DNA from: Chloroflexota bacterium
GTDB taxonomy: Bacteria; Chloroflexota; Anaerolineae; Anaerolineales; Anaerolineaceae
Length of the DNA: 64,000 nucleotides
NCBI GenBank assembly: GCA_029265085.1
Contig: JAJUJY010000005.1
Span: forward strand, 1-64,000
Direction of reading: 5' to 3'
Shown: in pieces, positions 41,830 to 60,001 of the stretch
Position numbering within the stretch: position 1 is the first letter of the stretch
Layout: the number at the start of each line of letters is the position of its first letter
Position numbers and translations under genes: made by a program
The notes under the pieces: model-generated
What the model was told of the DNA's origin: nothing
The model's database searches: none
The model's input: the letters and a program-made list of their open reading frames with translations, nothing else

Positions 41830-42911
41830 CGCAGAACCGTCTCCGTCCAGGCTTCAATCCAGGCTGAGCGATTTTCGGCAATTTGTCCTGGGTCTAAAGT
41901 CGCGGGTTGTTCCGCCATTTGAATATTCTTTCCATAAACATCCGGTAATTTGGCCTCGGAATTTACCGGAAAAACAAACATTTGCAGAGGCATATCTTCC
42001 TGGAAAGGCACACTCAGCATAAAGTCCACGAATTTTTCTGCCAGCGCGCGCTGCTGTGTACCGGCCAGGATTCCCACAAATTCAATCTGCCGGAAGCAGG
42101 TGCCCGGCCCAGCAATAGAAGCCGTCGGAGAGGTCTCAATCGGCTGTTCGGCAAAGACCACTTCGGCTGCCGGGCTGGAGCCGTAAGAAACCACCATCGA
42201 CTGCGCGCCTTTTCCGGATGAACCGGAAAAATTGGTGTAATAGGCGGTTTCCCAATCATTGACGACTACCAATCCGTTATCTTTGAGCTTCTGCCAGTAA
42301 TCCAGGTAACCATCTGGACCATATTGGGCAATCGTAGCCAGCAAGAACGCCAAACCGGGCGAAGAGGTGGCCGGGTTTTCTACCACCAAAAGTCCTTGAT
42401 ATTCTGGTTGAGTCAATTCATCCAGTGACTGTGGAACCGCCAGGCCTTTTTCAGCGAAATATGCTTTATCATAATTGATGCACACATCACCGTAATCGAC
42501 CGGTAAAGCGCCGTTTTGTTTATCCAACTGAAACTCCGCTGGAATGTTGGCCAGCAGCGGCGAGTTGTATGCCTCAAAGATTTCTTCTTCCAGTGCGCGC
42601 GACAGAAAGGTATTATCCACACCGTAAAACACATCTGCCAGCGGCGCATTTTTGGATAAAATTGCCTGGTTCAAGGCTGCGCCGGTATCACCGGAGGGTA
42701 AAAAGACCACCTTGGCATTATTCTCCTGCTCAAAGGCAGCGATCACCTCTTCGCTGACGGCAAATGAATCATGGGTCATCACTTTCAAGGTGGGCACTTC
42801 AGCAGGTACAATTTCACTGACCGTTTTTTGAGAAACCGGTGCTGCAGGAGCGCAGGCTCCCAACAAAAGAACAACAACCAATAAACCAAATATCCAGTTA
42901 TGCTTCTTCAC
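41826..42911 (-). CDS. thiB: Thiamine-binding lipoprotein of ABC importer
   Basis: A 361-residue substrate-binding lipoprotein. The signal peptide ends with LLGAC (Cys20). The mature protein resembles TbpA/ThiB: VMTHDSFAVSEEVIAAFE near the start, LADVFYGVDNTFL, LPVDYGDVCINYDK, and NDWETAYYTNFS. It captures thiamine or TPP outside the membrane and passes it to ThiP. The start is GTG 42911, which overlaps the pyrophosphokinase gene by 14 bases and has GGAG upstream. It belongs to the riboswitch-controlled transcript from 43750. Confidence 0.9.
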   Translation of the reverse strand: MKKHNWIFGLLVVVLLLGACAPAAPVSQKTVSEIVPAEVPTLKVMTHDSFAVSEEVIAAFEQENNAKVVFLPSGDTGAALNQAILSKNAPLADVFYGVDNTFLSRALEEEIFEAYNSPLLANIPAEFQLDKQNGALPVDYGDVCINYDKAYFAEKGLAVPQSLDELTQPEYQGLLVVENPATSSPGLAFLLATIAQYGPDGYLDYWQKLKDNGLVVVNDWETAYYTNFSGSSGKGAQSMVVSYGSSPAAEVVFAEQPIETSPTASIAGPGTCFRQIEFVGILAGTQQRALAEKFVDFMLSVPFQEDMPLQMFVFPVNSEAKLPDVYGKNIQMAEQPATLDPGQIAENRSAWIEAWTETVLR

Positions 42912-43590
42912 GGCTTACTTCTCCATCAGGATAGATTTCCTCGGGTCGCCGGTGCGTATGGATGCACAACAATTTTCCAGACTGGAGGCGGACACTGGCC
43001 TGCTCGGACAGCATCTCATTGCTGATCCCGCGTGTGCGGTTTGGACACAAAGTTTCCTCGCGCAGCGGATATCGCAAACCATCCGTCAGCACCCCAAAGG
43101 CTTTTCCGTCCAGAGGCAGCAAAGAAACCGTATCACCGGGCTTGCCTTCGATCGTGACCGCCTTACGAATGATCATGATCTCTTCCCGGCCGTCCACCAG
43201 GCGCACATCCAGGTCTTCAAGTCCCGGCAGCATTAACAAGAAAAGGTTGGCCAGCGTCTGGTCAATCCGTCCGCCCAAAGCAGCAACCACTCGAATTTGA
43301 GCATAACCCTGAGCTGCCACAGTGGTCAGAGCCAGTTCTAAATCGGTTTCATCCTTTTCCACTGGATGCTGTTCTACCCGCACACCGGCAGATCGCAGCG
43401 CTGCCAAAGCCGCTGGATCCACCGAGTCAAGATCGCCAATCAAAAGCGCTGGAGTGAACCCCAATTGGGTCATGTGACGCAGGCCGCCGTCCACGGCAAC
43501 CATATAATCACCTGGCCGGACCATCTCCCGAATCACTTCAGGATTTGCCAACTCCCCATTGACGAAGATAAAAGCGCGCACAGTATTCAT
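42898..43590 (-). CDS. thiN: Thiamine pyrophosphokinase
   Basis: A 230-residue enzyme that transfers pyrophosphate from ATP to thiamine, making TPP. The catalytic motif GDLDSV (52-57), the DETDLELAL segment and GGRIDQTLANL (the thiamine-site region) are typical of TPK. The start ATG 43590 is taken because the transcript's attenuator ends directly before it. It is the first gene after the TPP riboswitch, so high TPP would shut off both its synthesis and thiamine uptake. The genes thiB and thiP follow with overlaps. Confidence 0.93.
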   Translation of the reverse strand: MNTVRAFIFVNGELANPEVIREMVRPGDYMVAVDGGLRHMTQLGFTPALLIGDLDSVDPAALAALRSAGVRVEQHPVEKDETDLELALTTVAAQGYAQIRVVAALGGRIDQTLANLFLLMLPGLEDLDVRLVDGREEIMIIRKAVTIEGKPGDTVSLLPLDGKAFGVLTDGLRYPLREETLCPNRTRGISNEMLSEQASVRLQSGKLLCIHTHRRPEEIYPDGEVSREEA

Positions 43591-43593
43591 AAC

Positions 43594-43629
43594 AAAAAAT
43601 CGCCCTTTCTTCCTTCCGGGGAGGGCGAT
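43594..43629 (-). terminator. Attenuator hairpin of the TPP riboswitch
   Basis: On the minus strand, ATCGCCCT (43629-43622) and AGGGCGAT (43606-43599) pair and are followed by TTTTTT, four bases before the thiN start codon. A CTCCCCG segment at 43623-43617 is complementary to CGGGGAG at 43738-43732 in the aptamer. The two structures would be mutually exclusive. Confidence 0.85.
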
Positions 43630-43650
43630 TGCGGTCAAACATCAGGTCAG

Positions 43651-43758: not shown

Positions 43759-43787
43759 AGTATATTGCAGCCCGGATAAAAAGTCAA
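43759..43787 (-). promoter_or_regulatory. Promoter of the TPP-regulated operon
   Basis: TTGACT (43787-43782) and TATACT (43764-43759) are 17 bp apart. The predicted start is near 43752, a few bases before the aptamer. Confidence 0.85.
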
Positions 43788-43819: not shown

Positions 43820-44605
43820 TCAACGCACGCGGCGCTTCCATTCCTCTTTCAATTGCAGCTGGCGCGGACTTTCGCCGGAAGCCAGGGTTAAAAAGTCATT
43901 CATCAGCCGGTTAAACTTACTGCTGTCGTCCAACATAGGGAAATGACCGCCCTGGTCAAAGGTCACCAGGCTCACCTGCTCCGGCAGATTAGCCACCTGT
44001 TCCTGGCGCGGGTGCTGCACCGCTGGATCGTTCCAGCCATGAACCAATAAACTGGCTGTATTGGTCTCTTGCCAGATAGTTTGCAGAGAAAAGGACTGCA
44101 AGCTATTAAAGGAACTGATCACCGCCTGCAAATCGGTTTTGGCCGCATCGACATATACTGCTTCCGTGATGGAACTGCGTCCCAAAAGCCACCCCGCCAG
44201 GTCAACCGGCGCAGTTGAGCGCAGCCGGCTGTTAATCATCGTTTGTTCCAGTGGAAAACTGACTGCCATCACCCGATCCACAACACCTGGGTGCTTGCGG
44301 GCAAAATCCAGGGCAACAGCTGCCCCCAGGCCGTGCCCAACCAGGGCCACCCGGCCAATCCCCATCTTGTCTAAAAATCCGTTGATCATTTCGGATTGCT
44401 GCTCAACGGCATAACAATTATTCTTGGCAGAATCGCCAAAACCGAATAAATCCAGAGCATATGCGCGGAAATTCAGCGAGGCAGCCTGCATCATCGGAAT
44501 CCAATAACGCCAGGAACCCACCCAGCCGTGCAAAAAGATCAGCGGCCGCCCGCGGCCCAGGGTTTCGTAATGAATGATGTCCTGATCCAGGAGAATCGCG
44601 CTCAT
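43820..44605 (-). CDS. Alpha/beta-hydrolase-fold protein with Gly at the nucleophile site
   Basis: A 261-residue protein of the alpha/beta hydrolase fold: oxyanion region PLIFLHGWVGSWRYW, acidic region LVHGWNDPAV and late His in FDQGGHFPMLD. The nucleophile elbow reads VALVGHGLGAAVAL, so the usual Ser is Gly92 (GGC codon, one base from AGC). Asp and His remain. It is probably non-hydrolytic, perhaps a receptor or regulator, or uses another chemistry. It is the last gene of the nine-gene signalling operon and is related to the intact hydrolase at 54945. It begins nine bases after the CheY-like gene. Confidence 0.88.
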   Translation of the reverse strand: MSAILLDQDIIHYETLGRGRPLIFLHGWVGSWRYWIPMMQAASLNFRAYALDLFGFGDSAKNNCYAVEQQSEMINGFLDKMGIGRVALVGHGLGAAVALDFARKHPGVVDRVMAVSFPLEQTMINSRLRSTAPVDLAGWLLGRSSITEAVYVDAAKTDLQAVISSFNSLQSFSLQTIWQETNTASLLVHGWNDPAVQHPRQEQVANLPEQVSLVTFDQGGHFPMLDDSSKFNRLMNDFLTLASGESPRQLQLKEEWKRRVR

Positions 44606-44614
44606 ACAGTCGGG

Positions 44615-44989
44615 TTATTTTCCAATACGGTCAAGCAGTTCACGCACCTTTTGGGTTAGGTCATCCGGAGCAAACGGCTTGAGCAAATATTCGGTTGCTC
44701 CTACGGCAAATCCGGTTTTAATTTCCGATTCCTGTCCTTTGGCTGAAAGAAAAACCACCGGGATATGCTTTAGCGCAGGGTCCGCTTTGATTTTTTCACA
44801 GGCCTCATAGCCGGTCATGCGCGGCATGCGCACATCCATCAAAATCAAATCCGGCATTTCCTTCCCTGCTGCCAGCCAGGCCTCTTCCCCATTCGGAAAG
44901 GTCACCACATCATGCCCGGCAAAACGCAGGGTAAAGCCAATCAAATCCCGAATATCACGTTCATCTTCAGCAACTAAAATTTTCGCCAT
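44615..44989 (-). CDS. CheY-like response receiver
   Basis: A 124-residue single-domain receiver. The acidic pocket is AEDE (about 7-10), the phospho-acceptor is Asp52 in LILMDVRMP, the Thr/Ser position is in VVFLSAKG, and the conserved Lys is in YLLKPF. There is no output domain. The start ATG 44989 has GAGGAA upstream within the kinase gene; an in-frame extension upstream lies inside the kinase coding region. It follows the giant histidine kinase by four bases and is presumably its direct partner, or a phosphate sink. Confidence 0.94.
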   Translation of the reverse strand: MAKILVAEDERDIRDLIGFTLRFAGHDVVTFPNGEEAWLAAGKEMPDLILMDVRMPRMTGYEACEKIKADPALKHIPVVFLSAKGQESEIKTGFAVGATEYLLKPFAPDDLTQKVRELLDRIGK

Positions 44990-44993
44990 ATCA

Positions 44994-47900
44994 CTATTCC
45001 TCAAGATTTGCTTTGGGCAGTGTAAACGAAAAGACACTGCCTTCGCCAGGAATTCCGCTGCTTGTAAACCAGATGCGGCCGTTCATCATTTCCACCAAGA
45101 TCTTTGACAGCGCCAGGCCCAGGCCCGTTCCGGAAGTGCGCATCACCAGCGGATCCTCACCACGATAGAAGCGCTCAAAGATCCGCGGCTGAACCTCGGC
45201 AGAAATCCCAATGCCATTATCAATCACATCCAACTGCAGAGTCTCCGGAGCACTACGGCTGGCACGCACCTTCACCGTGCCATTTTCCGGCGTGTAATTA
45301 TACCCGTTCAAGGCCAGCGCCCGTAGAACCTGCTGGATGCGCACTCGATCACCGAATGCTTTGGGAAGATGCTCTGGAATTTCCACCGCAAAGGTCATCG
45401 GTCGGTTCTCCTGCACAGAGCGGTCGCGCAGCTCTTTGACAACCGTTTCAATAATTTCAGGCAGATCAACCGCCTGGAGCGTAACCTGTTCCTTGCCCGA
45501 TTCAACCCTCGAAATATCCAACAAATCATCCACAAGGATGTGCAGTTTTTGGGTATTTTCTTTAACCACATTCAGGAAATGCACCTGCTGGGCAGTCACC
45601 TGACCGCCAGCCCCCATTAACAGAATATCCACGTAGCCCTTGATGGAGGTCAGCGGTGTGCGCAGCTCGTGGCTGACGTTGGTAATAAATTCCGACTTCA
45701 TCCGGTCCACCTGTACCTGGTGGGTAATATCACGGAAGATCGTGACCGTCCCCAGAAAACCGTTCCGCCAAAAGACCGGCGCAAGATGAATTGCAACAAC
45801 CTGGTCATTGTCCAACAAAATGGTGTCCGCATAGGTTTCGCCCATCTGGTAAGCGGTGGCATCCTGCGACCAATTTTGAATGGTCTCCATCCAGGTCTTA
45901 CCAGACTTGCCAAACACACCACTGAAGCGTTCCAGCGGCTGTCCAATGATTTGATCCACCCGGACCCCCAGAATTTTTTCTGCGGAAGCGTTGAAAAGGG
46001 TAATTTTTAGACTGGCATCGGTAACCACAACACCGTCCGCAACGGCTTCCAGAATGGCACGCGAACGGCTGGCCTCTATTTGTTGGTCACGCAGCATGCT
46101 GCCCAGATTTTCCGCCTGGTCGCGGATCAGGTTGAACAATTCCGCATTATTGAGCGTGATCCCAATCTGGCGGGCAATCGTTTCCAGCAAGGCCACCTGA
46201 GAAGATTTAAACTGGGCTGCTTTCCGGTGGTACAGATTGAGGGTTCCCAACACTTCTTCACCCAGAATCAGCGGAACCGATAAAACACTCTGAAAAGCCG
46301 GTTGAGACTCGGCGGGGATTTCCCAGCGCCCGTCACTGTGAATATCATCCACCCAAATCGGTGACCGCTGCCGGGCGACAAAACGATGGATCAAACGTTC
46401 CACAGACCGTTCGGGAGGCTGCACCGCATCAAAAGCCGTCAGGCTCAATCCGGATTGGTACACAGTGCTGCCCTGTGCCAGTAAAATCAGGCTTTCTTCT
46501 GCACCCAACGCCTGGTTAATCACAGAGAGTGTACGAGAAAGAACCTGCTTGATATCCAGGCTGGCGGAAAGTTCGGTTGTAATCCGCAGCATCGTCTGTG
46601 AATTATGGTGTTCTCGGCTCAATTCTGCAGTACGTTCTTCAACGCGCTGCTCCAGGTCTTCTTTCAAGCGGCGTGTTTCATCAAACAGGCGCGCATTTTG
46701 GAGCGTGATGGAGGTCTGGTTGCCAATCGTACGCGCCAGTTCAATTTCTGCCGGGTTAAAGCGGCGTTCCTCGGTACTTTGTAAAACCAGCCAGCCTTGC
46801 ACTTCCTGTCCGGCGATCAACGGCACAATCAAAAGGGATTTCACCAGTAATTGAGCCAGGTACGATTGCACCAGAGGCTGCAGCCCGCTTTCTTCGGTTA
46901 CACGGTCGGTATTGTAAATCCCTTGAGATTCCTGCAAGGCTTCAAATAATGGAATAGGATCAAACCGGTATGGTAATTCCAACCCAGAGGAAGGTTCTTC
47001 AGCAAGCAGGGTATAGGATGATCCTTCGGTGGGTAGAATAGCCGCTGCACGTGCTACCTCCAGCGCGCCAGCCAGTTGCTCGCAGGCTACGCGTAAAATC
47101 CGCGACAGATCTAAAGAAGAACTTAATTCGCGGGAAAGACGGTTTAATAAAGCCAAACGGTTTGAGCGCTGGTCTAATTCCGCTGCACGGCGCAGGCTCT
47201 CTTCATACAGGCGGGCATTATCCAACGAAACCGCCACCTGTCCGGCAAAGGTAGTTGCCAATTGAACATTGTCCGGTGTGTAAAAACCGGCTTCGCGTTT
47301 TTCCAATGCGATGGCACCGATTAATTCCGACTTTGCCAACAGAGGGATTCCCAACCAGGAAAAATATTCCGGTTCTAACAGGCTGGGGAAGCGCATATCC
47401 TCGCGAATATCAGCCACTGCCAGGGGCTGGGCTGTGCGAATCATCTCCTGGAAGAGCAGACTGTCTTCCACCCGCACAGAAATTCCGAGGCGGCTTTCAT
47501 TATCCGAAAAACCTGCTGCCGATGCTATGGACAATAAATCGTTCTCACGCAGCCAGAGAGTAGCCGTATCATATTCCACCACAGGTTTGAGCTGCTCCAG
47601 CATACTGGCAATCAATTGCTGTGAACTCAGGCTGGATGTCATCCGCCCAGAGACCTGGGTAAGGGCTTGAAGCTGTCCGGTACGCTGTTCAGTTGCCTGG
47701 AATAAACGAGCATTTTCCAGGGCCAGAGCAGCCTGCTGGGCAAGTGAGAGGGTCAACGCCTCATCTTCCGCACTGAATGCGCCGTTAATTACTTCATTCT
47801 CTAATACCAGCACCCCCAGACCGCGCTCACCCAGGCGAATCGGCACAACCAGGCTGGAGACCGGAAGTTTGCCATTGGAAGCATTCCGGTAGCGGATCAG

Positions 47901-50900
47901 ATCATCCGGAGGCAAGAGATAGTCCTCAGCAAAGTTGACTTCATAATCCCGGTCGGGTTGTCCGCTCATCAGCACACGCACGGGCAGCGGCGCCGGAACC
48001 GCGTCCACCGCATAACGAATCTCCAAAATTGAATCCGGAGAAACGTATCCAGCCGCCTTCAAAGGCACCAGCTGGCGAGTGCTATCCTCATACAGACCCA
48101 CCCAGCCGGTGGTAGCTGAGGAAATAACCTGCATAACGGCTTCCATTAACGCAGCCAAAATACTGCCCGGTTCCAGGCTGCCCAGCTTACGGCTGAAATC
48201 CAGCAAGAGATTCACTTCATCCAGGTGGCGGCGTGTTTCTCGCAGCAATTCCAGGTTCTGCAAGCTGACGCTCACCTGTCGGGAGAGTTGGGCATATACC
48301 TGGTGATCTTCCTCGCTAAATGGTGAAAGGACTTTGCTGCCCAGCACCAGTACGCCAGCCTGGCAGCCTTCCGAAATCTTAAACGGGAGGGCCAGAAAAC
48401 TGTGCGCGTTGACTGCATTCAGCAGAGGGGAATTTTTCCAGCTGTGGGTCTCCTCCAGGTTGGATATTAGCAGCATACGCCCATCCTGCAGCACCTGCCG
48501 CAGCGGGTTACGCTGGCCAAACAATGCCTCCGGGTTGGCGTGATCCGGAGCAGTCCCAAGCACGCTGATTAAGCGAGGTCCTACCGGAGTCTGTTCGGCC
48601 ACCAGCACAAGGCTCATATCCAACCGGGCCATAATTTCTTGACCAATAACTTCCAGGACACCTTGCACGTTATCTTGCAGCGTGGCACGTTCTGTCATTT
48701 CCAGGCCAGCCCGCACCCGTTCCACCCGCCGGAAAAGCCGCTGGTTTTCCACCGTCTGTTCAATTTGCCGGTGCAGCACCACCGGAAGATTTTGCTGTGT
48801 ATTCCGCAAAGAGCGTTCCAGGCGGCTGGTTTCTTCTTCCAGAACGGCCAGCCGGCTGCTAAGCTGGTTGGTATACCGCTTGTAATCAATCACCAGGGCA
48901 GCCTGGCTGGCAAATATCTCCAATGCATCAAAGGCAGGTTGGTCTGGCCGGCGGCCATCCCGCGGATCATCCAGGCTGATCAGTCCCAATAATTCGCCTG
49001 CGCCGTTATACAACGGCACAATCAAGATATCGTCAGGATCCCAGGCGTCCACCAACAGCGTTTCTGTGGACGGCAAAATGGTGACGGTATGGACATCTTC
49101 CGGAATGAGCGGCTCTTCATCAATCGGAATAAAATAGGCATTACCAATTTTATATTTTGGCTGAAGCAGATGCTGGATGCTGCGCCAGGGCTGAATCCGC
49201 GAGCGCAATTCTTCCCAGACCTCAGCCGCGATACCCACCCCTGCAACCCGGCGCAGTCCTTGAACCTGCGGATCATAAACACTGATCAGGGAAACCTGGA
49301 AAGATGTTGCTTCACGAATAGCCTGGCCAATGGCTTCCAGGGCTTTTTCCAGAGGTTGTTCCGGACGAAGATAATTGGAAACCTGGAATAGACGGGACAA
49401 CGTATCAATTTGCCGCTTGAGCAGTTCACCGCGGCGAGCCTGTTCTTCATACTGAATGGCATTTCCAAAGGCAATCGCAGCTTGAGCCGCCAGCGATTGG
49501 GCAATTTCTACCGCCGAATCATCGAATTGCTGCACAATCGTGCCGTGCATCACGATCAACCCGGCCGCGCGCTGCTGATAAATAATCGGCACCCACAGCG
49601 CCGAACGAATGCCGTCATGCAGACCGTGAACTTCCTCTTGAGAAAGATCCGCGATATTTTTAGTTTCGCCGCTGGATAAAACACGCAGCTCTAATGCAGA
49701 ACATTCGTCATTCGGTTTATCGCCCACATAAAAACGAATTCGGGGTGATTCACCCTCCGGTCGGGAAAGATCAAACATTAAAATCGTACCGCAGCTCGCT
49801 CGGGTGGTACGTACAGCTTCGTCATAGACCAGCTGCAGCAGATAACTTAAATCCAGTGAAGTACTTAATTCGCGGGTAATGCGCGTCAGAGCGGTCATTT
49901 GGTCCACCCGGCGGCGCAAGGTGTCGTCCGTTTGGGCTGAAAGATATGCCTGTTCAACTACCCCGGCCAACTGGCCGCCAGCGGTTGACATCACCTGCAT
50001 ATCGCTTAAATCAAAGTCTTGCGGACGGCGGCGGCAAATCCAAATTTCGCCAATTCCTTCATCCCGGACAATCAGCGGAACTGCCAGCACAGACTGAATC
50101 TGCCAGTTCGTAATCAACTGCTGGTAATAAGGAATCAATGGTTTTTCGGCAGGTTCCTGCCCCAGGCGGAAACCACGCTGGCTGCCCGTTACGCTAAAAG
50201 GAAATTGTGCATCATCCACCAATAAACGGGCAGACCGTTCCGTCAATTCACCCGGCTCCCCATAACGTGAAGCCCGGTGCAGATACAGCGCTGTCCGGTT
50301 GCGGTCCAAGAGGAAGGCAGCAGCCAGGTCTGCATTGAGCAAGCGCGCCAGCTCCTGTAAAGAATATTTCAAAATTTCGTCCAGCGTAGCGGAGGAAGAT
50401 ACCAGACTGGCAATTCTCCGCAAGGCTTCCGCACGCTGTGCGCGTGAGCGGGACTGCTGCACCAGTGCGGCATTCTCGATAATCGGTGCGGCCTGGTTGG
50501 CAATAATCATCAAAAAATGCAGCTCATCCTGGGTAAAATTCTGGCTGCCGTCCAGATGATTAGACACCTGCAAGTACCCCAACATCCGGCCGCCGGAAGT
50601 TAAAGGCACCAGCACCGTATCTTTCAGCGAGGCCGCCGAGGCAATGGCATTCAAGCCCAGCTCCTGCCACCGGGAATCCTCACTGGCATTTTCGGTAATA
50701 ATCACATCTTGATCTAAAAAGACCTGTTCCAAACGGCTGCCTGCTGGAATAGGGATCCTATAAATCTCCATAAATTGGGGGGGCAGCCCGTGAAATGGTG
50801 TCTGACCTTCCAATTGGCGTGTATTTTCGTTATACAGCACAAATCCCAAAATTCGCACATGGATCAATGGAATAATACTGTTAACCAGGCGCTCAAACAT

Positions 50901-51947
50901 CCCGCGCTGATCGCGCACCGCACTAAACGCCTGGGCAAGCTGCGCCAGGCCAGAAAGCTCAATTGCCCGGCGTTTTTCATGCCGGTAAAGCAGCGCATTG
51001 TGCAGCGCAATCGCTGCCTGCCCTGAGATCAGGTTGACCAGATCACGGTCCCCTTGTTGGAAGAAATCTACGGAAAGTGATGCCAGCTCCAGTGTGCCGA
51101 TAAATTGCTGTCCAACCACCAGCGGAACACCGAGATAGGAGCGCATTGGAAACGCTTTGCGGTCGAGCACCGGTCTGACTTCAAAATACGTTTCTACATC
51201 TTTCACCAGCAGCGGCTTGCGTTCACGATAGAGATAGCCGGTATAACCCTGGTCTGCCAGATAACGCTCGCGGGTTGACTCCAGCTTGCGCTCTACCCCT
51301 TGCTGGCCTACCATGCGGTAAGGAATAAACAATTCATTCTGGCTGTCCCAAATGGTAATTTCCCAAATATCTGCCGGGACCAGTTTTTCAACATTTTCCA
51401 GGATCGCCTGCAAGGTTTCGTCTAAGTCTAAGCTGGCAGCAATTGCCTGAGTCAACTCAGTGAAGGTTTGCAATGTTTTTGCCTGTAGCACTGAAGACTG
51501 GTCAACCAACTCCCCGCTCACTTCTGGTAAGCGGAGACTGAGTACCAGGTAGGGTTCTTGAGCAGCCTGCACCCGATACGAAATGCCGTCCGCCGGCCGT
51601 CCATCAAAAACGAAACGCGCCTGCCCTTCGGCGGCGCATAACCCCAGGAATTTTTCGCTGGGACGAAACTTTTTGGCTAACCTTTCGAGATTGGGCAGTT
51701 CCCCTTCTTGCAATTGAAAGATTTCGCGCGCGCGCGCATTAACCCAGGTAACCTGCCCGCCTAGATGAACGGTTAATACCGCATCCGCATGTGGGTCCAA
51801 ACTATCAGGCTGAAAGACTGGCAGTTCAGGCGGCCGAGTCAAACGCAGTTTCGGGACAAACCGCGTCAAACCCAGGGTTACAACCAGCACCAGTAACCCT
51901 ACCCCGACCAGTATCAACCCTAGAAGATTTGGATCCACTTGTGTCAT
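44994..51947 (-). CDS. Giant sensor histidine kinase with about ten GAF domains
   Basis: A 2317-residue kinase. One membrane helix (about 8-28), a PAS-like domain (about 45-140), then about ten GAF domains between residues 165 and 1950, each beginning with a helix of the LSRELSSSLDLSRIL type, with coiled coils near 1050-1090 and 1765-1790. A second PAS (about 1965-2075), HisKA with His2093 in SHELRTPLTSIKGY, and an ATPase domain (DNGIGI; GTGLGLALSK) complete it. The N box reads RALALNGYNYTP, keeping the Mg-binding Asn but losing the first Asn. It probably integrates many small-molecule or redox signals and phosphorylates the neighbouring receivers. It is preceded by the REC-GGDEF gene (14 bases). 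Confidence 0.95.
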   Translation of the reverse strand: MTQVDPNLLGLILVGVGLLVLVVTLGLTRFVPKLRLTRPPELPVFQPDSLDPHADAVLTVHLGGQVTWVNARAREIFQLQEGELPNLERLAKKFRPSEKFLGLCAAEGQARFVFDGRPADGISYRVQAAQEPYLVLSLRLPEVSGELVDQSSVLQAKTLQTFTELTQAIAASLDLDETLQAILENVEKLVPADIWEITIWDSQNELFIPYRMVGQQGVERKLESTRERYLADQGYTGYLYRERKPLLVKDVETYFEVRPVLDRKAFPMRSYLGVPLVVGQQFIGTLELASLSVDFFQQGDRDLVNLISGQAAIALHNALLYRHEKRRAIELSGLAQLAQAFSAVRDQRGMFERLVNSIIPLIHVRILGFVLYNENTRQLEGQTPFHGLPPQFMEIYRIPIPAGSRLEQVFLDQDVIITENASEDSRWQELGLNAIASAASLKDTVLVPLTSGGRMLGYLQVSNHLDGSQNFTQDELHFLMIIANQAAPIIENAALVQQSRSRAQRAEALRRIASLVSSSATLDEILKYSLQELARLLNADLAAAFLLDRNRTALYLHRASRYGEPGELTERSARLLVDDAQFPFSVTGSQRGFRLGQEPAEKPLIPYYQQLITNWQIQSVLAVPLIVRDEGIGEIWICRRRPQDFDLSDMQVMSTAGGQLAGVVEQAYLSAQTDDTLRRRVDQMTALTRITRELSTSLDLSYLLQLVYDEAVRTTRASCGTILMFDLSRPEGESPRIRFYVGDKPNDECSALELRVLSSGETKNIADLSQEEVHGLHDGIRSALWVPIIYQQRAAGLIVMHGTIVQQFDDSAVEIAQSLAAQAAIAFGNAIQYEEQARRGELLKRQIDTLSRLFQVSNYLRPEQPLEKALEAIGQAIREATSFQVSLISVYDPQVQGLRRVAGVGIAAEVWEELRSRIQPWRSIQHLLQPKYKIGNAYFIPIDEEPLIPEDVHTVTILPSTETLLVDAWDPDDILIVPLYNGAGELLGLISLDDPRDGRRPDQPAFDALEIFASQAALVIDYKRYTNQLSSRLAVLEEETSRLERSLRNTQQNLPVVLHRQIEQTVENQRLFRRVERVRAGLEMTERATLQDNVQGVLEVIGQEIMARLDMSLVLVAEQTPVGPRLISVLGTAPDHANPEALFGQRNPLRQVLQDGRMLLISNLEETHSWKNSPLLNAVNAHSFLALPFKISEGCQAGVLVLGSKVLSPFSEEDHQVYAQLSRQVSVSLQNLELLRETRRHLDEVNLLLDFSRKLGSLEPGSILAALMEAVMQVISSATTGWVGLYEDSTRQLVPLKAAGYVSPDSILEIRYAVDAVPAPLPVRVLMSGQPDRDYEVNFAEDYLLPPDDLIRYRNASNGKLPVSSLVVPIRLGERGLGVLVLENEVINGAFSAEDEALTLSLAQQAALALENARLFQATEQRTGQLQALTQVSGRMTSSLSSQQLIASMLEQLKPVVEYDTATLWLRENDLLSIASAAGFSDNESRLGISVRVEDSLLFQEMIRTAQPLAVADIREDMRFPSLLEPEYFSWLGIPLLAKSELIGAIALEKREAGFYTPDNVQLATTFAGQVAVSLDNARLYEESLRRAAELDQRSNRLALLNRLSRELSSSLDLSRILRVACEQLAGALEVARAAAILPTEGSSYTLLAEEPSSGLELPYRFDPIPLFEALQESQGIYNTDRVTEESGLQPLVQSYLAQLLVKSLLIVPLIAGQEVQGWLVLQSTEERRFNPAEIELARTIGNQTSITLQNARLFDETRRLKEDLEQRVEERTAELSREHHNSQTMLRITTELSASLDIKQVLSRTLSVINQALGAEESLILLAQGSTVYQSGLSLTAFDAVQPPERSVERLIHRFVARQRSPIWVDDIHSDGRWEIPAESQPAFQSVLSVPLILGEEVLGTLNLYHRKAAQFKSSQVALLETIARQIGITLNNAELFNLIRDQAENLGSMLRDQQIEASRSRAILEAVADGVVVTDASLKITLFNASAEKILGVRVDQIIGQPLERFSGVFGKSGKTWMETIQNWSQDATAYQMGETYADTILLDNDQVVAIHLAPVFWRNGFLGTVTIFRDITHQVQVDRMKSEFITNVSHELRTPLTSIKGYVDILLMGAGGQVTAQQVHFLNVVKENTQKLHILVDDLLDISRVESGKEQVTLQAVDLPEIIETVVKELRDRSVQENRPMTFAVEIPEHLPKAFGDRVRIQQVLRALALNGYNYTPENGTVKVRASRSAPETLQLDVIDNGIGISAEVQPRIFERFYRGEDPLVMRTSGTGLGLALSKILVEMMNGRIWFTSSGIPGEGSVFSFTLPKANLEE

Positions 51948-51961
51948 TCAAGTTCAACCAC

Positions 51962-52864
51962 TCAACCGTTTGATCGTAAAGCATCCTGACGGCGTTCTTC
52001 GGCTGCAATTTCTGTAATTTCACGAATATCCGAAAATTGATGAGTGGCCGTTGTCACCACCCCAACCGCCAGGGTCATAAAGGGGGTCTGAATCATTTCG
52101 CCGCCTTTTCCTGGCGCATTAAAATAACCTTGCTGGCGGTCCATAAAGTTGTAATGCGACTTTACTTCTTCCGCAAAGCGTGCCTTAATCCGTTCTTTTA
52201 TTTTTGCAGCCGCCGCACTGGAAGTGAAAATGACAAAATTATCACCGCCTGCATGTCCAATAAAGTCATTATCAGTACCCACATCGTCCACCACTTCACC
52301 CAACAGCATAGCGGTAAAGCGCAGCACATCATTTCCCGCGATAAAGCCGTACACGTCTTTAAATGGTTCAAATTCGTTAACACGAATATCCATAAAGCCC
52401 CAATCCGACTGGCGCATAGACTTCCGCAGTTGATCCTCAATCAAACGGCCTGAAGGCAAACCAGATTGTGGATCGGTCAGGCTTTCCCGCTCAGAGCGAG
52501 CCAGCGCATTCTGGACACGCAGTTTCAGCTCTTCGATATCAAACGGCTTGGTAATATAATCATCCGCCCCAAGTTCCAGTCCCTTGAGCTTATCACTGCG
52601 TTCATCTTTCTGGGTCAGGAAGATCACAGGGATATGACTGGTACGAGTATTGGTGCGCAGCGAACGGCAAACCTCATAACCGTCAATGTCAGGCAGCATA
52701 ATGTCCAACACCAACAAATGCGGCATCACCTGCCGGGTTTTTTCCAGGGCTTCCCCGCCGCGCGGCGCAACATCTACATCATACCCCTGGCTCATAAAAT
52801 AAATTTTGAGCATATTGGAGATGTCACCATCATCTTCGACAATCAACAGGCGGGCTTTACTCAT
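51962..52864 (-). CDS. Response regulator: REC plus degenerate GGDEF
   Basis: A 300-residue regulator. The receiver domain (1-120) has the acidic pair Glu10/Asp11, phospho-acceptor Asp54 (LLVLDIMLPD), IPVIFLTQ and KPFDIEEL. The C-terminal domain (about 125-295) is GGDEF-like, with LTDPQSGLPSGR at its start, but the signature reads AGGDNF (205-210), so the catalytic Glu is Asn. It is unlikely to make cyclic di-GMP and may bind a nucleotide or a protein. GGAGG precedes ATG 52864. It starts the second half of the operon, behind an internal promoter. Confidence 0.9.
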   Translation of the reverse strand: MSKARLLIVEDDGDISNMLKIYFMSQGYDVDVAPRGGEALEKTRQVMPHLLVLDIMLPDIDGYEVCRSLRTNTRTSHIPVIFLTQKDERSDKLKGLELGADDYITKPFDIEELKLRVQNALARSERESLTDPQSGLPSGRLIEDQLRKSMRQSDWGFMDIRVNEFEPFKDVYGFIAGNDVLRFTAMLLGEVVDDVGTDNDFIGHAGGDNFVIFTSSAAAAKIKERIKARFAEEVKSHYNFMDRQQGYFNAPGKGGEMIQTPFMTLAVGVVTTATHQFSDIREITEIAAEERRQDALRSNG

Positions 52865-52954
52865 GAATTGCCTCCAAAATATTTGAAACTGGCAAGCACC
52901 CCGGCCGAAAAAAAATTATTCAATTTACCGGGTCTGTCTGGGAAAACAACTTAG

Positions 52955-53032
52955 ATATTCGATAACACCTTAATCTTATGCCAAACTGCACATTCTGACA
53001 AGCTATGCGAACCTTTGAATATTGGATAACAC
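52955..53032 (-). promoter_or_regulatory. Internal promoter flanked by a 14-bp direct repeat
   Basis: On the minus strand TTGTCA (53001-52996) and TAAGAT (52978-52973) are 17 bp apart. ATATT(C/G)GATAACAC occurs at 52955-52968, near the predicted start site, and at 53019-53032, upstream of the -35 box: 13 of 14 bases agree, 64 bp apart. This suits a regulator that contacts both sites. Confidence 0.6.
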
Positions 53033-54309
53033 TACCAGGATTCGCTCGTTTCTTCACCCTGCCGGGGATACAAACGCTGGTGATGGACACCGGCCCGCAA
53101 TAAATGATGGTCGCTGTCTTCATACCGGATATCTTTGTCGATCACCCGGCGCTCTTTGGATGCAAATAAAACCACATCCGATTCAATCGTTCGGGCAGGA
53201 TACACAATCATGCCCGCGCCAATCCGGCAGTTATGCCCTACGCAGCCGCCCAAAACAGGCCGGTTGGCATCACGCAAAACGCCATTTGCATCCCGTGCGC
53301 GGATAACGGAAGGAACCAGGTTGTAATCCGTAAAGGTAGAACCTGCGCCAATAAAAGAATTTCTCCCCACCACACACATTTGCAGGCAGGTATTTTGCGC
53401 CACCATGCTGTTATCCATGATGGTGGTCATGAACAAGGAAGCCCGGAACGGCAAGAAAGTGCCGTCCCCTACCACCGAAAGCATCAGCTGGCAGCCTTGC
53501 GAAACATTGACATTATCCCCAATGATGCAGTTCTCAATCACTGCACCTGCGCCCACCGTCACATTATCACCAATCGTCGTTGGGCCGTGAATCACCGCCG
53601 AGGGATCGATTGAACAGTTGCGCCCAATTTGCACCAGCTTTGAACATTCCAGCACCTGGCGGCCTTCATACAGCGCAGCGCCCAGGACACCCAATTTGAA
53701 AAACGGGTCGCGGTTCAGGCGGTCTTCAAACCGCGCACCGCGGCCAAACAGGCCAAAAACGGTATCCGCAATAAAAATATGCACCCACGAGTCAATCGCA
53801 ATCATCGAGCGCAGCGGAACCTGATAAACCAGGTCACCCTGCTCGGAGGCCATATAGGTAGGCACATGATAATAGCCAATTTCTTTGGAGAGCATATCAA
53901 TAACCAGCGGTTCGGCATCAGGTTCCGGGCCGTTGGGGTAATACCATAAATCTGCCAGATAGAAATCACCGGCAGGGGTATAGGAAGCAGAAAGCGGCAG
54001 GCAGTGCTCACGAAAAGCAGGGTCCTTGCTGGAGAAGGCTGCCCGAACCGCCCGCCCATGATGCTTCGCCTCACGAATAAACGCATCGATATAATCCTGG
54101 TCAAACAGTAGGTTATCGCGGTACACCAGGCAGGGTTCATGCGTTTGCGGCAGACGCGCTTCGGCGGGTAATTCCAATTCATGCGTGGTATAAGGAGCAA
54201 GCACATCCCGCTGAAAGAGCCACAACGGCTTATTCAAAACTCGCAGATCGCGCGCGCGCTCATTGAATGGCGACAGATAACGCGGACACTGCAAAATAAT
54301 TTTAAACAT
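53032..54309 (-). CDS. Left-handed beta-helix (hexapeptide repeat) protein
   Basis: A 425-residue protein. The first 220 residues have no recognised domain (it begins FKIILQCPRYLSPFNERARDL). From about 225 to 375 it has hexapeptide repeats typical of a left-handed beta-helix: VQIGRNCSIDPSAVIHGPTTIGDNVTVGAG (partly listed) and VVGRNSFIGAGSTFTD, then GGCVGHNCRIGAGMIVYPARTI. Such domains are in acyl- and nucleotidyl-transferases; here the N-terminal part does not show a nucleotidyltransferase signature. In this operon it could modify a lipid or act as a scaffold. AAGGA precedes ATG 54309. Confidence 0.82.
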   Translation of the reverse strand: MFKIILQCPRYLSPFNERARDLRVLNKPLWLFQRDVLAPYTTHELELPAEARLPQTHEPCLVYRDNLLFDQDYIDAFIREAKHHGRAVRAAFSSKDPAFREHCLPLSASYTPAGDFYLADLWYYPNGPEPDAEPLVIDMLSKEIGYYHVPTYMASEQGDLVYQVPLRSMIAIDSWVHIFIADTVFGLFGRGARFEDRLNRDPFFKLGVLGAALYEGRQVLECSKLVQIGRNCSIDPSAVIHGPTTIGDNVTVGAGAVIENCIIGDNVNVSQGCQLMLSVVGDGTFLPFRASLFMTTIMDNSMVAQNTCLQMCVVGRNSFIGAGSTFTDYNLVPSVIRARDANGVLRDANRPVLGGCVGHNCRIGAGMIVYPARTIESDVVLFASKERRVIDKDIRYEDSDHHLLRAGVHHQRLYPRQGEETSESW

Positions 54310-54321
54310 TGCCGCAGTCCT

Positions 54322-54948
54322 TTAATCCAGTGCGCGCTGGTCGATTTGGAAAACGCAGGCTTCCGCACCGCAAGACCGGCATTGGAGTTCAGTCACCTGG
54401 TAATATTTCCCGCCGCTGGCCCAGGATAAATATTCCTGCAGAAAACCCGCCGTAAAATGGCACAGACTGCTCTCGCTTTGCTGATCCAGGCATTCAGGGC
54501 AATTTTCCACCCGCCAGAACCAGTTCCGCCCGTCATTCTCTACCTGAACATCCAGGCCGCATTGTTCGCGCAGCATTTCCGCGATTCGTTCCAGACCTTT
54601 TCCCAGGCGAATACGGCTGGGCAGCAAACGATATTCCATCGTCTCAAAGCCTAACAACTCGCCATATTTCCGCAGAAAATAACCAAAGCCAGCCCGGCCA
54701 GAACGCAGCGCAATTCCGCGCGCTCCCCGCGGTCCATAGACTTTATCAGCGGCAATATGTAAAGCTTTAATATCGCCCGGTTCCAATAGCACAGAAGAAC
54801 CTGCTGTGGGATTCTTTTCCATCAGGCCGTCACTCAATGCCCGGTGAATTAAGGCATTTAAGCCTGCCTGGGCAATCATTTCCTGCACCCCCTCAACAAC
54901 AATTTTTGAAATCAAATTGGAACAGCGCAGGGTCGTATCAATACTCAT
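54322..54948 (-). CDS. V4R-domain protein with cysteine cluster
   Basis: A 208-residue protein. The C-terminal V4R domain (about 110-205; CHFTAGFLQEYLSWASGGKYY, in part) is a predicted small-molecule binding fold. It carries Cys150, Cys153, Cys163, Cys190, Cys193 and Cys198 (CRSCGAEAC), as in V4R proteins that bind metal or hydrocarbons. The N-terminal part (1-100) is helical and may dimerise. It overlaps the preceding hydrolase gene by ATGA. It is probably the ligand- or redox-sensing component of the signalling operon. Its ligand is unknown. Confidence 0.88.
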   Translation of the reverse strand: MSIDTTLRCSNLISKIVVEGVQEMIAQAGLNALIHRALSDGLMEKNPTAGSSVLLEPGDIKALHIAADKVYGPRGARGIALRSGRAGFGYFLRKYGELLGFETMEYRLLPSRIRLGKGLERIAEMLREQCGLDVQVENDGRNWFWRVENCPECLDQQSESSLCHFTAGFLQEYLSWASGGKYYQVTELQCRSCGAEACVFQIDQRALD

Positions 54949-55745
54949 AGGGGTTTCTCAATTTTTTGGTCCAGAAAATCCTTCAACTTTGCCTGGAAGG
55001 GCTGCGGTTCGTCCAACATAATGAAATGCCCGGCGTTCTTAAACCGCTCAATCCGCGCTGAAGGCACACCCGCCAGAAGCGGCTGCCACTGCCTGGGATG
55101 AACAATATTATCCCGATCGCCAAACATTCCCATCACAGGTACATTGATTTGATGAAGGGCAGGGCGCAGGTCAGTACGGCGCAGCGAGGCAATGCTGTTG
55201 AGGAAGGATTCAAGGGTTGTCCGCGAAAGGTCGCGGTCCATCATGTCTGGAAAATTTGGGTCACGGCATATGAAAGGAGATGCAACCCGCATGCCAGCCC
55301 GAAAGACACCAAACAGGCTAAACAACAAAAAGGCGATCACCCGCTGCCCCGCCAGTTTGAGCGGGAACGCTAATGACGATCCCACAATCGGCGAGCCAAT
55401 GATGACCACTTTTTCCACACGTTCCGGATAACGCAGCGCCACCGAAAGGCTAACTGTGCCCCCCATACTGTGACCAACCAGCGGCGCGCTCACAATACCC
55501 AGCTTATCCATAAATTGATCCACCAGGTTAATAAAATCATCCACCTGGTATGTATCCAGTTTGCGTCCGGATTCACCAAACCCCCAAAAATCCAGTGCAT
55601 AAGTGCGGTAAGACTGCCCCAGGTAAGTCATCGTCTCTTGCCATAACCCCCAGGAGCCTAACCAGCCGTGCAACAAAATAACAGGCTTACCTTTGCCGTA
55701 AACTTCGTAGTGTAAGATACCCTGGTCTGTTGTGATGGATGACAC
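54945..55745 (-). CDS. Alpha/beta hydrolase, intact catalytic triad
   Basis: A 266-residue alpha/beta hydrolase. The oxyanion region is PVILLHGWLGSWGLW, the nucleophile is Ser93 in VGHSMGG, the acid is in GMFGDRDNIVH, and the His is in NAGHFIMLDEP. It is related to the Gly-variant protein at 43820 (both have LHGWxGSW and xLDFWGFGxS-like segments), so the operon holds a likely active and a likely inactive pair. The start is GTG 55745 with no ribosome site. A stem GGGCAAA/TTTGCCC lies between it and the GTPase gene. Substrate unknown. Confidence 0.9.
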   Translation of the reverse strand: MSSITTDQGILHYEVYGKGKPVILLHGWLGSWGLWQETMTYLGQSYRTYALDFWGFGESGRKLDTYQVDDFINLVDQFMDKLGIVSAPLVGHSMGGTVSLSVALRYPERVEKVVIIGSPIVGSSLAFPLKLAGQRVIAFLLFSLFGVFRAGMRVASPFICRDPNFPDMMDRDLSRTTLESFLNSIASLRRTDLRPALHQINVPVMGMFGDRDNIVHPRQWQPLLAGVPSARIERFKNAGHFIMLDEPQPFQAKLKDFLDQKIEKPL

Positions 55746-55770
55746 GTTTTTTTATACTTTGCGGGCAAAC

Positions 55771-56310
55771 TCAGGATTTGCCCCCCTCCATTTCCGCAAG
55801 GATACTATACAGCAATTCCAGCAGCACGTTCTTGACGGTTGCTTTATCTCTGGCGACACAAGGCAGGAACTTTACCTTGGGGTCTAAGCGCAGTGCCACG
55901 CGCATATCTTCAAGGTCCCAGGCATCTTCCCGGTCTTGTTTATTTGCAGCCACCACATAAGGCGTTGGTGCGTAGGCGCGGAATGTTTCCAAAATGCTGC
56001 GTGCTTCGCGGAAAGTTTCAGGGCGGGTACTGTCCACCATAACAATAAAGCCCAACATACCCTCTGAGAGAATTTCCCACATGAAATCAAATCGTTTTTG
56101 TCCCGGAGTGCCGAATAAATACAGGATCAGGTCGTCATCTACTGTAATACGGCCGAAATCCATGGCCACCGTCGTATTTTCTTTTACTTTTTCCACATCC
56201 GAAGAAATTTTCCGCTCGGTGGAAACTACGTCAATTTCACTCACAGCACGAATGAATTCGGTTTTACCGGCATTAAACGGTCCGGTGACTACGATTTTGA
56301 CTGTCTGCAT
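55771..56310 (-). CDS. Ras/MglA-like small GTPase
   Basis: A 179-residue GTPase. G1 is GPFNAGKT (10-17), the G3 region is FGTPGQKRFDFMWE (66-79) with Gln71 at the Ras Gln61 position, and G4 is NKQD (123-126). The D-x-x-G element appears as TPGQ after LYLFG, as in MglA and related bacterial GTPases. These act as molecular switches on polarity or signalling complexes. No MglB/roadblock partner is encoded here; the DUF4388 protein upstream may play that part. AAGGA precedes ATG 56310. Confidence 0.93.
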   Translation of the reverse strand: MQTVKIVVTGPFNAGKTEFIRAVSEIDVVSTERKISSDVEKVKENTTVAMDFGRITVDDDLILYLFGTPGQKRFDFMWEILSEGMLGFIVMVDSTRPETFREARSILETFRAYAPTPYVVAANKQDREDAWDLEDMRVALRLDPKVKFLPCVARDKATVKNVLLELLYSILAEMEGGKS

Positions 56311-56335
56311 TCGATAATGTCCTTCGGTGTAAGGG

Positions 56336-57151
56336 TTAGATAGATCGGATCCGGCTGATCAAACGGTTTACAAGTGATACCTGCTCCTCTTTATTCTGGG
56401 TCGGGAAAGACCGGGCCGGAATAGAAGGAGGAGCACCGCCGGGGCGAATAATTTCCACCAGCCCAGCCTGCAATAAAGCATAAACAACCCGGCGAATTTC
56501 CAGATCGTTCATCTTGGTCGTATGGGCGATCTGACGCATCGTGTTTTTGGGATTTACATAAGAAACGACCCGCCATTCCTCAACACTCAAATTCACATTG
56601 CGCAGATTGGTCCCTGGCCGGTCAGTAAATTTCAATGCCATATCCAAACTGGGGATTTCTTCCTGGAGCTGCTCCCATTCTCGCAGCTGCCGGGAACCTT
56701 CAATGATTAAATTCTCCAGGTCAATTCGTACCGGAATTTTCCCCACCGGCATTGGGCTGTCCTGGTCAAAACGGAAGAAGCCTTCCACCCAGGTAAACAA
56801 CCTGCGAACCACACTGATAGCATATTGCTGCAAGCTTTCTAAGATATCCCCCTGGCTTAAATAGCCAGCATTAATCAACAGGAGGCCAATTTCTTTATCC
56901 GACATCTGCCGGGTGCGCTCGCGAATCAAGCTTGCCTGGCGCGGGGTGATCTTTTTATTGCGCTCCAGGATAGACGCAAGGCCGCTGTCCTCTTGCCCAA
57001 TTTGGGCAAAGGCCAGCTTCCCATCACGAAACGCAATCTGAGCCACTTCGCCCGGTCCTTCAATTACCAAAGTTCCGGTTTTATGTGCCAGATTAACTAA
57101 ATTGAGCAGTTGGGTAATTGTGAAATCGCGGAGGTTGCCCCTTAGAGCCAT
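56336..57151 (-). CDS. DUF4388 (PATAN-like) protein
   Basis: A 271-residue cytoplasmic protein and first gene of the operon. Residues about 1-100 match the DUF4388/PATAN domain (ALRGNLRDFTITQLLNLVNL, then GTLVIEGPGEVAQIAFRDGKL). The middle has a helical part (MSDKEIGLLLINAGYLSQGDILESLQQYA, in part). The C-terminal part (about 185-240) looks like a winged helix (MRQIAHTTKMNDLEIRRVVYALLQAG). In other phyla DUF4388 proteins occur with small GTPases and receivers. GAGG precedes ATG 57151. Confidence 0.9.
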   Translation of the reverse strand: MALRGNLRDFTITQLLNLVNLAHKTGTLVIEGPGEVAQIAFRDGKLAFAQIGQEDSGLASILERNKKITPRQASLIRERTRQMSDKEIGLLLINAGYLSQGDILESLQQYAISVVRRLFTWVEGFFRFDQDSPMPVGKIPVRIDLENLIIEGSRQLREWEQLQEEIPSLDMALKFTDRPGTNLRNVNLSVEEWRVVSYVNPKNTMRQIAHTTKMNDLEIRRVVYALLQAGLVEIIRPGGAPPSIPARSFPTQNKEEQVSLVNRLISRIRSI

Positions 57152-57189
57152 GTGTTAGCCTCAAAGCGTGATATATACACCATTTCAGA

Positions 57190-57219
57190 ATTATACATTA
57201 CTCTAAAGGCCAGCGTCAA
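57190..57219 (-). promoter_or_regulatory. Promoter of the nine-gene signalling operon
   Basis: TTGACG (57219-57214) and TATAAT (57195-57190) are 18 bp apart. The leader to the start at 57151 is about 32 bases. No operator-like repeat is obvious. Confidence 0.8.
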
Positions 57220-57335: not shown

Positions 57336-58256
57336 ATGTCCATAAAAACGTTCGTCCTCTGCAACCCCCTTGCGAATCAAGGTAACGCAAAAAAAATCAT
57401 CGATGTTCTGCGCCCGCTCACCAGCGGCGATCAAACGATCACCTGGCATGAGACCCAATATTACCAGCACAGCCTTGAATTGACTGCGCAGGCTATTCAA
57501 GAGCAGGCGCAGCGGATTGTTGCCATCGGTGGAGATGGAACCATTCACGAGGTGGTCAATGGGTTAATGCGTGTGGATTCCGCCCGGCGGCCCAGCCTGG
57601 GTATTGTACCGGTCGGCTCCGGTAACGATTTTGCCAAAGCGCTTGCGATTCCGGCCAATCCGCAGGCCGCATTGCAAACCGCTCTAGGCACAGCAGCCCG
57701 CCCAATCGATATCGGATTGATTCAAGACGAGACAGGCCGCTCCGAATATTGGACCAATTCGTTAGGCATCGGTTTTGATGCCATCGTAAATATCCGCTCC
57801 CGGCAGGTGACCTATGCGCGCGGCTTCGGCATTTATTTAATCGCCGCTTTGCAAACCATTCTCTATAATCACAACCCCATCTTCGTTCAGGCAGAAGAGG
57901 ATGGGCGTATCTGGCAAGACCGCCTGATTATGATGGTAATTGGCAACGGCCGCCGGGAAGGTGGCGCATTTTGGATCGCCCCAGAAGCACATCTGAATGA
58001 TGGACTTTTGGATTATGCCACCGTCCAGCGCATCTCTCGTTTGCAAATGCTCCTGACAATCCCTCATTTTATGCGCGGAACCCATACCAGCCTGAAATAT
58101 ATTTCCACAGGCCGCTTCAAGCGATTACAATTAACAGCAAACTTGCCCCTGCGCATCCATACCGATGGAGAAATCTATGCGGGCATGGATTCCAGGCTGC
58201 AAAAAATCGTCATCGAGTCTGTTCCAGGTGCAGTGCAAATTGCCCTGTCTGCCTGA
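57336..58256 (+). CDS. Diacylglycerol/lipid kinase family protein (YegS/DagK-like)
   Basis: A 306-residue lipid kinase. The ATP-site motif is GGDGT (65-69) in IVAIGGDGTIHEVVNGL, and VPVGSGNDFAKAL (92-104) is the second family hallmark. The C-terminal part (about 140-300) is the beta-sandwich lid with QDRLIMMVIGNGRREGG. Members phosphorylate diacylglycerol, undecaprenol-type or sphingoid substrates; specificity is not evident. It is divergent from the signalling operon, so any regulatory link is speculative. Confidence 0.92.
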   Translation: MSIKTFVLCNPLANQGNAKKIIDVLRPLTSGDQTITWHETQYYQHSLELTAQAIQEQAQRIVAIGGDGTIHEVVNGLMRVDSARRPSLGIVPVGSGNDFAKALAIPANPQAALQTALGTAARPIDIGLIQDETGRSEYWTNSLGIGFDAIVNIRSRQVTYARGFGIYLIAALQTILYNHNPIFVQAEEDGRIWQDRLIMMVIGNGRREGGAFWIAPEAHLNDGLLDYATVQRISRLQMLLTIPHFMRGTHTSLKYISTGRFKRLQLTANLPLRIHTDGEIYAGMDSRLQKIVIESVPGAVQIALSA

Positions 58257-58279
58257 TTTCTCCATCACAAGGAAGGTAA

Positions 58280-59917: not shown

Positions 59918-60001
59918 CTTTGAAGTGGAGTATAATCAAACCAGATCCCATCAAGGGGTCAATCGGGCTTGCATTTTCCAAATTCCACACCTGAGGTAAA
60001 C

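Follow-up and report, generated by a model that had tools for sequence, protein, structure and literature searches.

The window analysed here is a stretch of 64,000 nucleotides of a 64,266-base contig (JAJUJY010000005.1, assembly GCA_029265085.1) from a Chloroflexota bacterium of the family Anaerolineaceae. Between positions 43820 and 57219 it carries nine open reading frames (ORFs), all on the minus strand and each with a Pfam match, which include a small GTPase of the MglA type; these nine genes, denoted A to I, are the subject of this study. A (56336..57151) encodes a 271-residue DUF4388 protein (DUF4388, 3.5e-25), B (55771..56310) the GTPase of 179 residues (ATP_bind_1, 8.2e-18; Ras, 1.1e-10), C (54945..55745) an alpha/beta hydrolase (1.1e-33) with the triad Ser93-Asp212-His240, and D (54322..54948) a V4R protein (V4R, 1.6e-12). 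E (53032..54309) joins a nucleotidyltransferase-like domain to a left-handed beta-helix (hexapeptide, 2.4e-16), and F (51962..52864) joins a receiver (Response_reg, 3.2e-28) to a degenerate GGDEF domain with the motif GGDNF (partial GGDEF, 2.3e-10). They are followed by G (44994..51947), a histidine kinase of 2317 residues with 10 GAF stretches, PAS, HisKA and HATPase_c matches; H (44615..44989), a CheY-like receiver (Response_reg, 3.1e-28); and I (43820..44605), a protein of alpha/beta hydrolase fold (4.9e-22) with Gly in place of the nucleophile. The ORF of H is listed from position 45037, and its start was re-set by alignment to Met17, as relatives do not have the first 16 residues. With this start at 44989, the gap between G and H is 4 bases, and the gaps from A to I are 25, 25, -4, 12, 167, 14, 4 and 9 bases. 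The genes, domains and spacing given in the original prediction, which was made from the sequence alone, were all recovered.

Upstream of A lies a promoter-like element, TTGACG-18-TATAAT (57190..57219, minus strand), which matches the consensus at 11 of 12 positions. An alignment of 15 sequences, namely the window and 14 loci picked near it from the 79 described below, shows TTGAC...TATAAT at the corresponding position in 13; it did not align in L001 and L002. A weaker candidate promoter (52973..53001, minus strand), with 9 of 12 consensus matches, is found in the 167-base gap between E and F, and several of 13 aligned sequences have a similar box. Both elements had been proposed originally; the promoter scan as a whole gave 17 sites, within the range expected by chance (12.4 +/- 4.0). 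Because of the aligned element before A and the weaker shared box in the 167-base gap, the genes are likely to form two transcription units, A-E and F-I, rather than one.

The same gene order was looked for in other Chloroflexota. A contig scan gave 466 pattern matches, and in 414 of them the encoded protein is related to E. The best 80 were retained, and L007, which repeats L006 in inverted orientation on the same contig, was left out to give 79 loci. Nearly all of the 80 loci have titles that name Anaerolineae taxa or unclassified Chloroflexota, which skews the sample to close relatives. For protein E, 119 other relatives with 75-85% identity were present among the matches listed. Of the 66 loci that extend more than 3.3 kb upstream of E, 65 keep the order A-B-C-E, and in 58 of these 65 the V4R profile finds a match between C and E. 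Downstream, F follows E on the same strand and within 1.4 kb in 66 of the 72 loci with more than 2.5 kb of sequence; G comes after F (66/66), a CheY-like gene after G (53/54), and I or its start next (26/26). The six loci in which F does not adjoin A-E are L004, L008, L014, L015, L018 and L021, and the genome of L014 (G004) has F-G-H-I at another place on the same contig (L130). The nine-gene order is strongly conserved in Anaerolineae, and pieces of it recur over part of the phylum, which is the outcome that the original prediction had asked for. One Levilinea contig (NZ_LGCM01000042.1; L006 and L007) carries two copies of the operon that face opposite ways, hence the two GTPase matches of this genome; the second copy either arose by a recent inverted duplication or is an artefact of assembly.

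GTPase B is among the best-conserved proteins, with 79-91% identity in the loci. The motifs GTPGQ and NKQD and residue Thr46 are each present in 73/73 sequences, and Thr47 in 72/73 (window included). In PMC4316618, MglA groups 2-5 are defined by GTPGQ in G3 and by Thr replacing the G2 Arg, groups 4/5 by [NT]KxD, and Chloroflexi are placed among groups 1 and 5. B has the GTPGQ and the Thr of groups 2-5, and its canonical G4 motif, NKQD, favours groups 4/5 over 2/3; by its sequence, B carries MglA group 4/5 motifs. It is the sole GTPase match at E 0.001 in 17 of 18 Anaerolineae-type genomes, a threshold that more distant GTPases could escape, and the two matches in the 18th (G007) fit the L006/L007 duplicate. 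The DUF4388 domain of protein A is presumably the PATAN domain, and near the C-terminus of A there is a weak helix-turn-helix match (HTH_9, 0.0019) below the cut-off. A PATAN neighbour is mentioned as occurring ‘occasionally’ for MglA groups 1 and 5 in PMC4316618, and PATAN proteins are named among Myxococcus candidates in PMC11580455, which pursues another protein. The sole paper found that contains ‘DUF4388’ is PMC8756737, where Anaerolinea thermolimosa genes stand in an appendix table.

C and I had been proposed as a hydrolase pair. Both have the hydrolase fold, but only C keeps an intact triad, with Ser93, Asp212 and His240 each conserved in 73/73 sequences (window included). In I, the nucleophile elbow reads GHGLG in 26/26, and Asp193 and His221 are also kept in 26/26 (window included); no Ser, Cys or Asp nucleophile was found at the elbow of any of these 26 sequences. 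Since Gly replaces the nucleophile throughout, I was rejected as a catalytic alpha/beta hydrolase. D belongs to the V4R superfamily both by profile and by its Bet3/V4R fold; its predicted model resembles H-NOX, Asgard TRAPPC3 and Bet3, and Cys150, Cys153, Cys163, Cys190 and Cys198 are mostly conserved. The predicted fold of E matches nucleotidyltransferases. Sugar nucleotidyltransferases have a signature in the form of a Gly-rich N-terminal stretch with catalytic residues; no conserved Gly was found in residues 5-30 of E (n=79), and E was rejected as such an enzyme, though the fold matches. Judged from its sequence, E is probably a pseudoenzyme or sensor, and E and I are both probably non-catalytic, serving in ligand sensing or as scaffolds.

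Among the signalling proteins, F keeps Asp54 in 68/68 sequences and has Asn at the fourth position of the GGDEF motif in 63/68. The active site of diguanylate cyclases is GG[DE]EF, and F was rejected as an enzyme of this type. In H, the receiver Asp is found in 50/50. Kinase G has one N-terminal hydrophobic segment (hydropathy 2.82 at residue 9), and of 59 kinase relatives longer than 1900 residues, L006 and L007 both being counted, 56 have a strong segment among their first 400 residues. The 54 relatives whose kinase was measured range in kinase length from 766 to 2538 residues (cases L028, L030, L062, L067, L068 and L078), which suggests that the count of GAF domains is not fixed. In the deep relative L118, two more receiver-like stretches (L118:2400-3119) lie between the kinase and CheY genes.

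No roadblock gene was found in the window, nor a roadblock domain among the nine proteins. The original prediction had stressed this missing partner, and it stands for the locus itself, but not for the genomes: each of the 21 related genomes searched has a Robl_LC7 match above the cut-off. Fifteen roadblock places were fetched from related genomes, and in 12 of them the roadblock gene is followed by a second V4R gene (V4R2) and then by a receiver paralogous to F. Identity to D is 30% for V4R2, and identity to F is 44% for the receiver of this second locus. Behind the trio, a family-2 glycosyltransferase, which we take to be of the DPM1 type, is found in 9 of the 12 (L142-L144, L146, L147, L149-L151 and L155). 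In L154, roadblock and V4R2 are present but the receiver is missing.

One set of 301 Chloroflexota genomes was then searched for E, B, Z (an additional gene described below), F, roadblock and V4R2, with the best few candidates scored per genome. E was counted when near full-length or matched in two pieces (52 genomes); the other 156 E-matching genomes were weak, and those listed match in the hexapeptide part. B was counted at an identity of at least 64% (55 genomes; G030, a partial match, and G164, at 46%, were dropped), F at no less than 43% (53 genomes, with 23 weaker ones dropped), and Z at E 1e-30 (52 genomes). Among the 52 genomes with E, F is present in 52, B in 51 and Z in 48. Roadblock was found in 56 of the 301, covering all 55 with the GTPase; in G030, the only roadblock genome outside the 55, a partial match to the GTPase lies some 730 bases from the roadblock. 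By coordinates, V4R2 adjoins the roadblock gene in 24 of the 56 genomes, and the F paralogue adjoins it too in 22 of these 24.

In more distant relatives, parts of the gene set lie together. Of 20 deep loci fetched, 16 have F after E, including L118, where Z is in between, and four (L101 and L118-L120) have A, B, C, E and Z side by side. DUF4388, GTPase and V4R genes are consecutive in L131 and L136. Three deep relatives combine the GTPase half with the roadblock half. L135 has DUF4388, GTPase and roadblock genes, with the GTPase and roadblock genes overlapping by 4 bases; L108 has DUF4388, GTPase, two roadblocks, V4R, E, hydrolase C and a further roadblock. In L137, DUF4388 and GTPase lie in one 460-residue ORF (L137:3085-4467, minus strand), which is either a natural fusion or a sequencing error, and two roadblock genes follow. 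The DUF4388, GTPase and roadblock domains of L135, L108 and L137 were confirmed by domain search. The putative roadblock partner, which in an MglA/MglB module binds and controls the GTPase, is encoded in 55/55 GTPase genomes and next to the GTPase in L135, L137 and L108.

The additional gene Z, of about 362 residues, separates E from F in 40 of 66 loci; no match to it was found in the window. One Z sequence tested is homologous to cyanobacterial acyl-ACP reductase (AAR; 6jzq, 4.6e-27) and to PigE (4ppm, 1.9e-40), yet it scores far below the AAR equivalog cut-off (121.8 vs. 449.7 bits), which separates it from the known AAR/PigE N-terminal domain. All 34 Z sequences checked have the motif YACMAE or FACMAE, which presumably holds the catalytic Cys. 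In a search of 15 genomes, six had a strong match (one of them, G012, at 43% identity and in a longer frame), three a weak partial match and six none; among the nine that lack a strong match are the genomes of loci near the window. Z stands apart from the other genes in a group of deep-relative genomes for which we use the working label ‘Chloroflexia-like’, based on genome size and distance. In one such genome (L124:7282-9357, minus strand), Z is extended at its N-terminus by a domain of some 310 residues for which Pfam gives no match, and long frames at other Z matches of these genomes suggest a similar fusion elsewhere.

Taken together, these results lead us to assign a probability of about 0.6 to the reading that the locus encodes one half of an MglA-type GTPase system of Chloroflexota, made up of kinase, GTPase and effector, and that the roadblock half lies elsewhere in Anaerolineae genomes. 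The gene content and order, the co-occurrence, the motifs and the predicted folds of D and E are best read as an MglA-type switch controlled by a kinase and a ligand and split over two loci. In such a switch, the membrane-anchored GAF/PAS kinase G would phosphorylate F, the F paralogue and CheY, while the V4R proteins may bind a hydrophobic, perhaps acyl, ligand that hydrolase C, and where present the putative acyl-thioester reductase Z, would tune. Phosphorylated receivers and ligand-loaded V4R proteins would act on a roadblock dimer, the roadblock protein would set the nucleotide state of B, and B-GTP would work via the DUF4388 protein A, as effector, on a target in the envelope or at the cell surface. 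Envelope, surface lipid and motility are candidate outputs. The kinase is placed upstream of the GTPase because the receiver gene follows the V4R2 and roadblock genes in the second locus, and F lies one gene after the V4R gene in the main locus. The original idea that the GTPase gates the kinase is not supported, since each of the two loci has receiver genes next to V4R or roadblock genes, which would fit the opposite direction better.

Several observations weigh against this reading. The second unit does not adjoin E in 6 of 72 loci, V4R is absent between C and E in 7 of 65, and the V4R fold matches H-NOX (13.8) as closely as TRAPPC3. The co-occurrence counts partly follow phylogeny and so are not independent, and the roadblock protein of the window's own species is inferred from its relatives. 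The two Chloroflexia-like roadblocks fetched (L152 and L153) stand alone. Chloroflexia-like genomes have up to three GTPase matches, and the three searched have 4-7 roadblock matches; with several MglA-type GTPases and roadblocks, the pairing is not unique there. In those fetched (L121-L123), A-B is a separate two-gene locus away from the E-F-kinase genes. Random scatter of the homologues had been named as evidence against the original prediction; none is seen in Anaerolineae, but DUF4388-GTPase does lie apart from E-F-kinase in the Chloroflexia-like genomes. Finally, C and the reductase-like Z may point to biosynthesis instead of signalling.

The separation of A-B from E-F-G in these genomes, the absence of F after E in six of 72 loci and the 167-bp gap, with a promoter-like box of its own that is echoed in relatives, would suit two independent units that share a site and not a pathway, A-E being a GTPase module and F-I an ordinary two-component system. 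We regard this as unlikely, as F is present in all 52 E-bearing genomes, its paralogue is linked to the roadblock-V4R locus, and F comes after E in 16 of the 20 deep loci fetched (in L118 with a reductase-like gene between), even where A-B is elsewhere. A lipid or glycolipid biosynthetic operon with its own regulators, in which E would be a sugar-nucleotide enzyme or acyltransferase, C an esterase and Z an acyl-thioester reductase, would account for the intact triad of C and for an AAR/PigE homologue with its Cys motif in 34/34 sequences. It sits poorly with a nucleotidyltransferase-like E that has no signature, with an I that has no nucleophile, with the nine of 15 genomes that have no strong Z match, including loci closest to the window, and with a GTPase that ranks among the best-conserved proteins, and we consider it rather improbable. 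Descent from an actinobacterial conservon (CvnABCD) would explain why kinase and MglA-family GTPase genes occur together and why related genomes have a roadblock. However, neither a roadblock nor a CvnC-type domain is present among the nine proteins, receivers are present, and the G4 motif is NKQD in 73/73, whereas group 2 often has no Lys there according to PMC4316618. The locus was accordingly rejected as a four-gene conservon (CvnA-CvnB-CvnC-CvnD), and a derived one is hardly credible.

Returning to the split MglA-type switch, the closest known systems are MglA/MglB of groups 4/5 (PMC4316618), which likewise have GTPGQ and NKxD motifs and a roadblock gene, found here in related genomes. They differ from the present case, in which the neighbourhood is conserved and includes V4R, a nucleotidyltransferase-like protein, a giant kinase and a pseudo-hydrolase, and in which the roadblock gene lies in a second locus beside V4R and a receiver. 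The neighbourhoods of MglA groups 1, 4 and 5 vary widely according to PMC4316618; here, a neighbourhood whose GTPase has group 4/5 motifs is highly conserved throughout a class and is accompanied by a roadblock partner locus. By folds and gene adjacency, the set can also be compared to the TRAPP core (roadblock/longin, Bet3/TRAPPC3 and Rab) and its Asgard counterparts (PMC10933270). In contrast to TRAPP, the present set is bacterial, has an MglA-type GTPase and a roadblock rather than a longin protein, and has a V4R fold that matches H-NOX equally well (13.8). V4R and roadblock genes adjoin each other, and any exchange-factor role of a heteromer of their products is speculative. We would put forward only tentatively, as an improbable form, a bacterial TRAPP-like device in which a lipid-gated roadblock-V4R heteromer regulates a single MglA-type GTPase. 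Phosphorylation by the giant GAF kinase would enter through the REC-pseudoGGDEF protein paired with each V4R, and a two-component pathway and an acyl-ligand sensor would thereby converge on one Ras-like switch. According to PMC10933270, the small GTPase genes of MK-D1 are generally not in operons with roadblock or TRAPPC3 genes, whereas here the GTPase, roadblock and V4R genes, with folds of the TRAPP core and its Rab, lie in linked bacterial gene sets. Control of a GTPase by V4R through a roadblock protein becomes a directly testable question in bacteria. No description of this system was found in the full-text literature searched, outside which most subscription-journal papers lie, and in this respect the conserved signalling locus remains unmatched, as originally claimed. 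The GTPase locus looks like an undescribed wiring of a known switch type (MglA/roadblock) with unusual partners.

The operon is flanked upstream by divergent genes (57336-61186, plus strand) for a YegS-type lipid kinase, a helicase C-terminal-like protein and a BioF/Kbl-type acyltransferase, and the lipid kinase or helicase-like gene keeps adjoining the operon in a number of loci. Directly downstream (40105-43638, minus strand) are genes for a thiamin pyrophosphokinase, a solute-binding protein and a permease, by which a promoter-like site is found at 43787; several relatives have similar flanking genes.
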